The notes under the pieces: model-generated | The model's database searches: none | Seen by the model: only the letters and a program-made list of their open reading frames with translations | Told to the model about the DNA's origin: nothing | In this document: one piece after another, positions 15,303 through 44,269 of the stretch | Position numbering within the stretch: the stretch's first letter is position 1 | How the letters are laid out: every line of letters begins with the position of its first letter | Position numbers and translations under genes: made by a program | Source of the DNA: Thermoproteota archaeon | Lineage (GTDB): Archaea > Korarchaeota > Korarchaeia > Korarchaeales > Korarchaeaceae | DNA length: 64,000 nt | NCBI GenBank assembly: GCA_027078475.1 | Contig: JALWYH010000003.1 | Span: 1-64,000 of the forward strand | Direction: 5' to 3'

Positions 15303-15405
15303 GCCGGGGTGCCCTAGCCTGGTAGGGGGCTGGCCTGCTAAAGCCTCCTCCTGCGGACAGCCAGTGGCCCATCGGGCCGCGAGGGTTCAAATCCCTCCCC
15401 CGGCG
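15303..15405 (+). tRNA. tRNA-Ser(GCU) with an anticodon-loop intron
   Basis: A type II tRNA. Acceptor GCCGGGG pairs with CCCCGGC, discriminator G, and CCA is encoded (15406-15408). Anticodon stem CTGGC/GCCAG is interrupted by an 18-nt insert, placed between positions 37 and 38 at about 15341-15358; removing it gives loop CTGCTAA, anticodon GCU. The variable arm GGCCC-ATC-GGGCC is typical of Ser. Eleven bases later tRNA-Val follows, so both may share one transcript. A TATA-like GTTTAAAAATCC is at 15261-15272. Confidence 0.93.
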
Positions 15406-41924: not shown

Positions 41925-41932
41925 ATGCATGG

Positions 41933-42019
41933 TGCGGGGGGTGGGATTTGAACCCACGCGGGCCTGACGCCCACCCGCCCCTCAAGCGGGCGCCTTGGAC
42001 CTGGCTTGGCTACCCCCGC
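41933..42019 (-). tRNA. tRNA-Leu(GAG)
   Basis: Type II tRNA of 87 nt. Acceptor GCGGGGG pairs with CCCCCGC, discriminator A, and CCA is encoded (41930-41932). Anticodon stem CCCGC/GCGGG with loop TTGAGGG gives anticodon GAG. It sits inside the ribosomal array between rpoD and rpl18e; a TATA-like GCTTTAATAGG is at about 42047-42057, immediately before it. Confidence 0.95.
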
Positions 42020-42059: not shown

Positions 42060-42833
42060 TCATCTCAGCTTCTCGGAGAACTCGATGAATTTCCGCTTGA
42101 GTTGATTCAGGGCCTCTAAGAAGATCTCCTGAGCGGGCAATGAGCCACTACTCTCATACCTGAGAATTATTCTCGAATCATCCCACTTCCTAGTTATCCC
42201 CTCTGGATTGTCGAGCCTGCATCTCTCTAAAGATTCCAGGCAGCCCTCGCATGACACGGGGCAGTCGATGATCACCTTCTTCCCCTTCCTCTTCATGCAG
42301 TCACCGCAGCTGGAGAGGTCGCATTTCTTCAGCAGGTCCCTGCTGAGCTCATATACGGGCATGTAGCTGTAACCCACGGCGACAGCTGGCTGCCACTTCG
42401 AGTGGTCCTTTCCTCTTCCTACTCTAGCCACAGCCTGGAGTCTGATCTTCTGGCCCTTCCTCATTTTGATTACAGGGATCCGGTCGTTGGCCGGAACAAT
42501 CAGGGGATCCGTAGATTTCAGGTCTCCCGAGTAAATCGTCTCCAGATCCTCCTTGGCCTCCTTGTTCAGCTCTAGGACGACAGTCCTCTCTGGATCAGAT
42601 CTGACGATGTCCATGCTGGTCCTCAGAGGGACCATAGCCAGCCTGTGGGCTATGTACTCGTCAAAGAAGGGGGTGGAATTTTCGAAGAAGATGACCTCAT
42701 CGACAGCGAATACTGGTACCTCGGATATTATCGCTCTTCTGAGAGCGTTGACTAGGGGAGGTTTTGCCTCCTCCACCACGATGATAGCCTCATCGCCAGT
42801 AAGCTTAATGATCCTAGCTCTCAACGTCTTCAC
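42060..42833 (-). CDS. rpoD: RNA polymerase subunit D (Rpb3 homologue) with Fe-S cluster domain
   Basis: A 257-residue RpoD that nucleates polymerase assembly with RpoL. The dimerisation domain is split by an insertion with seven cysteines: Cys171, 176, 179, 191, 195, 198 and 205. The spacing resembles ferredoxin-type motifs, so one or two Fe-S clusters are likely, as seen in some archaeal RpoD proteins. PPLVNALRRAIISEVPVFAVDEV is the conserved start and FLEALNQLKRKFIEFSEKL the end. It overlaps the unknown upstream gene by 20 nt. Confidence 0.96.
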   Translation of the reverse strand: MKTLRARIIKLTGDEAIIVVEEAKPPLVNALRRAIISEVPVFAVDEVIFFENSTPFFDEYIAHRLAMVPLRTSMDIVRSDPERTVVLELNKEAKEDLETIYSGDLKSTDPLIVPANDRIPVIKMRKGQKIRLQAVARVGRGKDHSKWQPAVAVGYSYMPVYELSRDLLKKCDLSSCGDCMKRKGKKVIIDCPVSCEGCLESLERCRLDNPEGITRKWDDSRIILRYESSGSLPAQEIFLEALNQLKRKFIEFSEKLR

Positions 42834-43800
42834 CCTTTTTCCTCAAGATCTCCACCCAAGGATTGCTCAATACCTCCTCAAGCATATCCTCCGATACAGC
42901 TCTGGAGGGGGGCCCGGGTTCAGCCTTCTCCCCCGTCGACGGAATATTAAATTGACGCTCCTCCCGTGAAGCACCTCCACCCTCCTTCCGCTCTCCCTCT
43001 TCGATCTGGCCCCTCATTATCTCGCTGTCAGGACTGGGAACTGTGGTGGTTTCGTACTTGAACGTCCGGGGCTTATTGAGTTCCACCGGTTGATATGCGC
43101 CCGGAGCCACGTGCTGATTCCCAAGTAGTTTTATCATGGCCTCAAGCAGCTCCACCCTCCTCTCGAGCTCTTGTATCCTGTTTAGTAAATCGGCCTCCTT
43201 GTCTCTCCTGATCTCCTCCAGAATCGATTTCAGGGACTGATCTATGGTCTCCTTTATTTCCCTAAGGATCGTAGGTAGGCCGTCCTCTCCCTCTTCTAGA
43301 GTCATTTTCACGTTCTTCATTCTTTGGGTGATTTCCATCCCTCCTCCCACCTGATTAGTAGTTTTCCTCTCCTTTCTCGGCGCAAAAGTCGCCCTCACGA
43401 GAGATGATCTCTTTTCCGGTACTTCATCCGATTCAATGCTGACTTCCCCGACGGGTGATCCCAGCTCACGGGTTGATCTAATCACGACCTCCACACCTAG
43501 CCCTCTGACTTTGGAGAGCTCATCCATGGCGTACTCCAAGGCTCTAGGAGGGACCCACACATCCACCCTGTCGAACTTTATCCCCGCCCTCTTGTGCACC
43601 TCTACCAGCTCCTCGATCCATTCGGAGAAGTCACCGTCATCAGAAGGATCATATATAGCCACTAGAGGCCTCAGAATATTGCGGCCCTCTAGCCTCAGGA
43701 TTGCTGACCTGCCGTCGAGGCCCAGGCGCTCCAAGCGCGCTCGAGCACCCTTCTTGTACCACCCCAGAAGGACCTCTACACCCTCCGTCTCTCCAGGCAA
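42814..43800 (-). CDS. Unknown coiled-coil protein inside the ribosomal/polymerase operon
   Basis: A 328-residue protein I do not recognise. Residues about 1-112 look like a compact alpha/beta domain (SAILRLEGRNILRPLVAIYD, KFDRVDVWVPPRALEYAMDEL, GLGVEVVIRS). A charged low-complexity linker (113-175) leads to a predicted coiled coil (about 178-226, EIKETIDQSLKSILEEIRRD then RIQELERRVELLEAMIKLL). A disordered, Pro/Glu/Ser-rich stretch follows, and the end has a short helix (MLEEVLSNPWVEILRKKG) that looks like a binding peptide. It sits between rps11 and rpoD, which are usually adjacent in archaea, and overlaps rpoD by 20 nt, so it is co-translated with polymerase. Confidence 0.85.
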   Translation of the reverse strand: MPGETEGVEVLLGWYKKGARARLERLGLDGRSAILRLEGRNILRPLVAIYDPSDDGDFSEWIEELVEVHKRAGIKFDRVDVWVPPRALEYAMDELSKVRGLGVEVVIRSTRELGSPVGEVSIESDEVPEKRSSLVRATFAPRKERKTTNQVGGGMEITQRMKNVKMTLEEGEDGLPTILREIKETIDQSLKSILEEIRRDKEADLLNRIQELERRVELLEAMIKLLGNQHVAPGAYQPVELNKPRTFKYETTTVPSPDSEIMRGQIEEGERKEGGGASREERQFNIPSTGEKAEPGPPSRAVSEDMLEEVLSNPWVEILRKKGEDVES

Positions 43801-43870: not shown

Positions 43871-44269
43871 TCAGACCCTCCTTCCCCTCCTCCCGTGAGG
43901 CCTCCTGCACCCATCGTGAGGGATTGGTGTAACGTCCTCCACTCTTATCAGTATCAGCCCTGATCTGGAGAGTCCCCTGATGGCAGCGGTTGCTCCTGGA
44001 CCTGGGATTCTGCTCTTTATGCCGCCAGGGGCCCTGACCTTAACGATGAGGTGAGTAACCCCCTTCTTCTGAGCTTCCTTGGCGGCCGCCATAGCGGCCT
44101 TCAGGGCTGCGTAAGGCGAGCCCTCGAGCCTGTCTGCGTCAACGAACATGCCACCCGAGTACCTAGCGATGGTCTCGGCGCCCGTTATGTCCGTGATGTG
44201 GACTATGGTGTCATTGAATGAGGAGTATATGTGGGCGACACCTATCTTTCCCCTCTTCTGGGCAGACAC
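43871..44269 (-). CDS. rps11: Ribosomal protein uS11
   Basis: A 132-residue S11 with [33 protein letters not shown] and the C-terminal [20 protein letters not shown] that contacts 16S rRNA. GTG start. A gap of about 70 bp separates it from the unknown gene downstream, whereas most genes here overlap. Confidence 0.96.

Follow-up and report, generated by a model that had tools for sequence, protein, structure and literature searches.

Short docking tails on flexible arms, such as the PCNA-binding PIP box and the C-terminal tail of bacterial SSB, are common to unrelated host and mobile-element proteins. Ribbon-helix-helix (RHH; CopG-type) regulators are found in archaea and their mobile elements, and inactive PD-(D/E)XK domains, such as the nuclease-like domain of RecC, retain a core fold that lacks its catalytic residues. 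An inactive version of this restriction-enzyme-type fold forms the N-terminal jaw domain of RPB5 in eukaryotic and giant-virus RNA polymerases (PMC551604, PMC1185551). In published archaeal gene clusters rpoD directly follows rps11 (PMC10833476), and the two genes were likewise adjacent in four other archaeal genomes that we checked (G029, G030, G033, and G037), in line with what the first-pass annotation had taken to be the normal order.

Here, we describe a korarchaeal protein encoded between these two genes, which resembles each of the above systems in part. Like RPB5, it is polymerase linked and is predicted to contain an inactive restriction-enzyme-type fold; however, it lacks the RPB5/Rpo5 assembly domain, is a separate protein with a coiled coil and a C-terminal NPW tail, and its fold match is not specific. 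As in inactive PD-(D/E)XK domains, the predicted core fold is kept and the catalytic residues are absent, whereas sequence similarity to these domains is not detectable and the domain context is different. The NPW tail is, like the PIP box and the SSB tail, short, terminal, placed on a flexible arm, and common to unrelated proteins, but its helix has a different sequence, and is restricted to one archaeal phylum. Some korarchaeal RHH regulators carry the same tail behind a linker, whereas the protein itself has no RHH domain (no Pfam match). The fold, the coil, and short docking tails are of known kinds, and the combination and the NPW tail appear to be new and limited to one phylum. The literature searched held no description of this protein and nothing relevant on an NPW motif in archaea or on korarchaeal RHH proteins.

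The window, i.e., the whole stretch of DNA analyzed, comprises the first 64,000 nucleotides of contig JALWYH010000003.1 from a member of the Korarchaeaceae. The 328-residue open reading frame reported by the first-pass annotation was confirmed (Table 1), including its 20-nt overlap with rpoD at 42814-42833. Its TTG start is preceded by a GAGAGGTAG stretch, and rps11 lies approximately 70 nt upstream, preceded by rps13 and rps4. Downstream of rpoD follow tRNA-Leu and, to judge by their translations, rpl18e, rpl13, and rps9. The tRNA-Leu (GAG; 41930-42019) between rpoD and the rpl18e-like gene has a counterpart in the same arrangement in an Asgard cluster (PMC10833476). Elsewhere in the window, at 15303-15405, Rfam detected a 103-nt tRNA not called by ARAGORN, perhaps an intron-containing tRNA. 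Compared across five close relatives, the whole tail protein gene has a dN/dS of 0.24. The protein had been described as belonging to no recognized family, and indeed neither Pfam nor NCBIfam yielded a named family or any family above cut-off; a match to a known unrelated enzyme family, which had been envisaged as an outcome against the original idea, did not emerge. Sequence searches of the PDB, Pfam, and NCBIfam returned weak matches to the coil and bS6 and KORA-domain matches to the N-terminal domain, the latter with E-values of 0.01 to 0.03, which we took as chance.

Table 1. Positions of the tail protein gene, its encoded segments, and its neighbors in the window
Feature	Position	Strand	Description	Basis
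rpoD	42060..42833	-	GTG start	NCBIfam NF001988
Core tail protein gene	42814..43800	-	TTG start, 328 aa	ORF and translation, orthologs, alignment A1
rps11	43871..44269	-	upstream neighbor of tail protein gene	Pfam PF00411
N-terminal domain, residues 1-114	43459..43800	-	predicted inactive PD-(D/E)XK-like fold	AF2, Foldseek, motif absence
First linker, residues 115-172	43285..43458	-	mostly low confidence	AF2
Coiled coil, residues 174-228	43117..43281	-	helix	AF2
RVELLE, residues 215-220	43141..43158	-	trimer-type RhxxhE motif	
Second linker, residues 229-296	42913..43116	-	predicted disordered	AF2
NPW tail, residues 297-323	42832..42912	-	two short helices	invariant residues, profile matches
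NPW codons	42856..42864	-		pattern match G000:C3:42845-42864

The domain layout given by the first-pass annotation, consisting of an alpha/beta domain, a coil, a disordered region, and a C-terminal helix, was reproduced by AF2. In the model of the whole protein, the alpha/beta domain covers residues 6-114 with a pLDDT of about 90, and modeling of the N-terminal domain alone from 21 sequences gave a pLDDT of 87 and a pTM of 0.80. The element order in the latter, alpha-beta-beta-beta-alpha-beta-alpha-beta, is confident and contains the elements of the PD-(D/E)XK core (alpha-beta-beta-beta-alpha-beta) in the right order. Foldseek matched the domain to the PD-(D/E)XK-type proteins Cap4 and PaqCI in the PDB and, in BFVD, to a phage restriction endonuclease (probability 1.00), MmcB-like proteins, and three giant-virus RNA polymerase subunits 5; African swine fever virus (ASFV) RPB5 was among the matches of the whole model. 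Probabilities were 0.9 to 1.0, but none of the matches had an E-value below 1e-3, so this evidence is at the fold level and suggestive. Restriction enzymes scored at least as high as RPB5, i.e., the fold matches are not specific to the latter. Strand 3 lacks the catalytic [D/E]xK motif in all 21 sequences of alignment A5, and an active nuclease was therefore rejected. An RPB5 ortholog was likewise rejected, because Pfam and NCBIfam gave no match to the RPB5/Rpo5 C-terminal assembly domain and the fold matches are nonspecific. According to the models, the N-terminal domain resembles a PD-(D/E)XK-like fold without its catalytic motif.

The domain is followed by a coiled coil flanked by two linkers, both of which are predicted to be disordered and evolve faster. 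Among five close relatives, dN/dS amounts to 0.33 in the first linker (pLDDT below 50 over residues 117-156), 0.02 in the coiled coil, and 0.41 in the second linker (pLDDT below 50 over residues 230-297). The first linker had been called acidic, which holds locally (around residues 118-127), but read as a whole it is near neutral. The RhxxhE motif, which favors coiled-coil trimers, is present in all 15 sequences of alignment A1 and often missing from more distant orthologs; the coiled coil is probably trimeric.

In the C-terminal tail, AF2 places helices at residues 300-311 and 314-324. The tail has the consensus EEIL.NPWV.IL.KKG, with N313, P314, W315, L319, and G323 invariant among 15 orthologs, and the window protein carries the NPW..[IV]L..K helix near its C terminus, behind a linker. 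A profile constructed with 24 tails, the majority of which were among those later counted, detected 33 tails in 26 of the 29 genomes of the phylum with E-values of about 1e-7 or better (2.8e-12 in the genome of the window). Outside the phylum, only weak matches were found (E-value about 5e-3), in 2 of 365 other archaeal genomes, and viral contigs searched with two DNA patterns for the tail and one RHH query returned nothing relevant. Several matches to the NPW pattern were internal and unrelated, e.g., in membrane proteins. The conservation of the C-terminal helix, which the first-pass annotation had named as possible support for its proposal, thus proved strong, with the tail kept through the phylum.

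A search with the single protein sequence found matches in 14 of the 16 genomes of the genus, including that of the window, and in two further genera; with a profile, the remainder of the family was recovered together with weak matches in the order, and the class member was located by means of a DNA pattern for the tail. In a search of genome contigs, the single window sequence retrieved no match, and the alignment used as query retrieved 12 loci in metagenome-assembled genomes (MAGs). The 14 other orthologs, with 24 to 47% identity to the window protein, are all encoded between rps11 upstream and rpoD downstream. In family, order, and class, rpoD was the next gene in every case inspected, and rps11 preceded the tail protein gene wherever the contig reached that far. 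This order is kept across the class of the window, where the tail protein gene was found wherever rpoD is assembled; absence from close relatives with poor coding statistics, an outcome considered at the outset, did not occur. Three genomes (G006, G010, and G014) had no tail match; rpoD is also missing from these assemblies, so the absence is uninformative. In G014, the start of a tail protein gene follows rps11 at the contig end.

Genomes of the sister class (G026 to G028) encode a similarly organized protein whose gene has S25e as one neighbor; the other is S19 in G028 and a histone in G026. This gene is not adjacent to rpoD: in G026 the two, both on the same strand, are separated by 3.8 kb, and in G027 they share a contig. 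Profile comparison between the groups from the two classes aligned only the tail, so homology of the whole sister-class protein to the window protein is no more than plausible. Two further observations concern gene order in this class: a glutamyl-tRNA synthetase-like gene takes the place of rps11 directly upstream of rpoD (L153, 2125-4719; L154, 1325-3894), and in G026 the histone gene, the tail protein gene, and S25e follow one another on a single strand (L153, 6384-7878).

Within the tail codons lie the start of rpoD and, presumed to be its ribosome-binding site, a Shine-Dalgarno-like AGGAGG. Across five close relatives, dS over these codons is 0.08, compared to 0.4 to 0.8 elsewhere. This low value fits translation of the gene being coupled to that of rpoD, and an RNA element over the same stretch (42832-42912) is possible. 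Conservation of the tail solely as the rpoD ribosome-binding site was rejected, because the tail also occurs on proteins not followed by rpoD; as its amino acids are conserved there too, the protein-level signal is independent.

These proteins emerged from the first profile search, in which additional matches within these genomes were confined to the tail; pursuing them gave seven further proteins: the RHH proteins at L048, L049, L050, and L051 and those at L100, L103, and L097. Three of them (L048, L050, and L051) are above the Pfam RHH_1 cut-off, L100 is RHH-like by eye, L103 has a weak winged-helix match, and L097 matches no family. The tail is always near the C terminus, behind a linker. 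Neighbors of the four RHH tail genes include an integrase, a radical SAM, a Cdc6-type winged-helix, a TFIIB-repeat, and a PriL-like gene, as expected of mobile elements, with no complete element delimited. At L048 (4009-5653) and L050 (5603-7287), the RHH tail genes adjoin related radical SAM genes; one of the two also adjoins an integrase gene and the other a Cdc6-type winged-helix gene, and both loci may represent one family of korarchaeal mobile elements. The gene for the small tail protein at L097 (1215-2178, G025) adjoins a macro-domain gene. Outside NPW, the seven noncore tails are more similar to the core tail of their own genome than to other core tails: in a permutation test over five genomes, the summed identity was 52, a value reached in 1 of 20,000 permutations. 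This likeness would result either from coevolution of the tails with a common partner or from recent tail exchange. In G017, two of three noncore tails are unlike the core tail.

We propose a korarchaeal set of tail-bearing proteins that has the window protein as its core member. The noncatalytic nuclease-fold domain of this protein would probably bind nucleic acid or protein in the manner of the RPB5 jaw, and a coiled coil, probably trimeric, would connect it to long flexible arms. At the end of each arm, an NPW helix would dock into a single conserved cellular machine. In the class of the window, the translational overlap would allow the protein to be made in step with RpoD. The machine would most likely be RNA polymerase or the immediate partners of this enzyme. 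The same helix is present on DNA-binding proteins, several of which have genes next to those of mobile elements; these proteins would apparently use the same docking site and may recruit the machine or compete for it. We assign this reading as a whole a probability of roughly 0.4. A docking role for the tail is in itself likely. In favor of the reading as a whole, the tail is kept through the phylum with nothing convincing in 365 other archaeal genomes, and seven unrelated carriers have tails resembling the core tail of their own genome, although two in G017 do not. RNA polymerase is, as a first guess, the most likely partner: the linkage to rpoD, directly downstream throughout the class, the RPB5-type fold, with several RNA polymerase subunit 5 proteins among the Foldseek matches, and the use of the tail by DNA-binding proteins each favor it, though none is proof. 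The synonymous conservation over the tail codons also fits coupled translation. On the other hand, none of the fold matches is RPB5-specific or has an E-value below 1e-3, the sister-class gene lies away from rpoD and shares only the tail in alignments, and operon linkage to both ribosomal protein genes and rpoD cannot separate polymerase from ribosome.

The main rival, which we consider unlikely, is a hub for chromosome organization or segregation, in which a nucleoid or partition factor would be the partner of the tail and DNA that of the nuclease-fold domain, with mobile elements hitchhiking by the tail on host chromosome handling. The unrelated carriers, mostly DNA-binding and encoded near integrase, Cdc6-type, and PriL-like genes, would suit this role, as would the histone gene next to the G026 homolog, but it leaves the tight rpoD overlap and the ribosomal-operon location in every lineage unexplained. 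That location, next to S11 in one class and to S25e and S19 in the other, is what a ribosome-associated factor would account for, binding the small subunit or linking it to polymerase while the tail docks on a ribosomal protein; yet DNA-binding carriers beside mobile-element genes have little reason to bind ribosomes, and we regard this as improbable. Even less probable is a dedicated RpoD assembly chaperone, as proposed in the first-pass annotation. Part of that proposal stood, as the helix is conserved and the rpoD overlap and gene order hold class-wide, but a role specific to RpoD was not singled out: the tail on RHH proteins and the S25e neighbor of the sister-class gene, which is not beside rpoD, make the tail look like a more general docking signal. 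A short, C-terminal, portable tail on a flexible arm might also be a turnover or localization signal instead of a docking site on a nucleic-acid machine; since most carriers have a recognizable or likely DNA-binding domain, unexpected for a general degradation signal, we hold this to be the least probable reading.

Returning to the docking hub, it is tempting to speculate, still more tentatively, that the NPW tail is a phylum-specific docking code on an extra polymerase- or ribosome-linked hub, by which the DNA-binding proteins of mobile elements plug into a host machine. If true, this would represent a transcription or chromosome interface that is specific to the lineage and undescribed elsewhere, and the polymerase and ribosome operons of a deep archaeal lineage would have gained a conserved protein unnamed in family databases. 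The N-terminal domain would be a possible archaeal case of an inactive nuclease fold, similar to the RPB5 jaw, beside an RNA polymerase gene. Through the common tail, an orphan gene becomes a testable interaction, and the partner of the tail would reveal the connection between korarchaeal mobile elements and their host.
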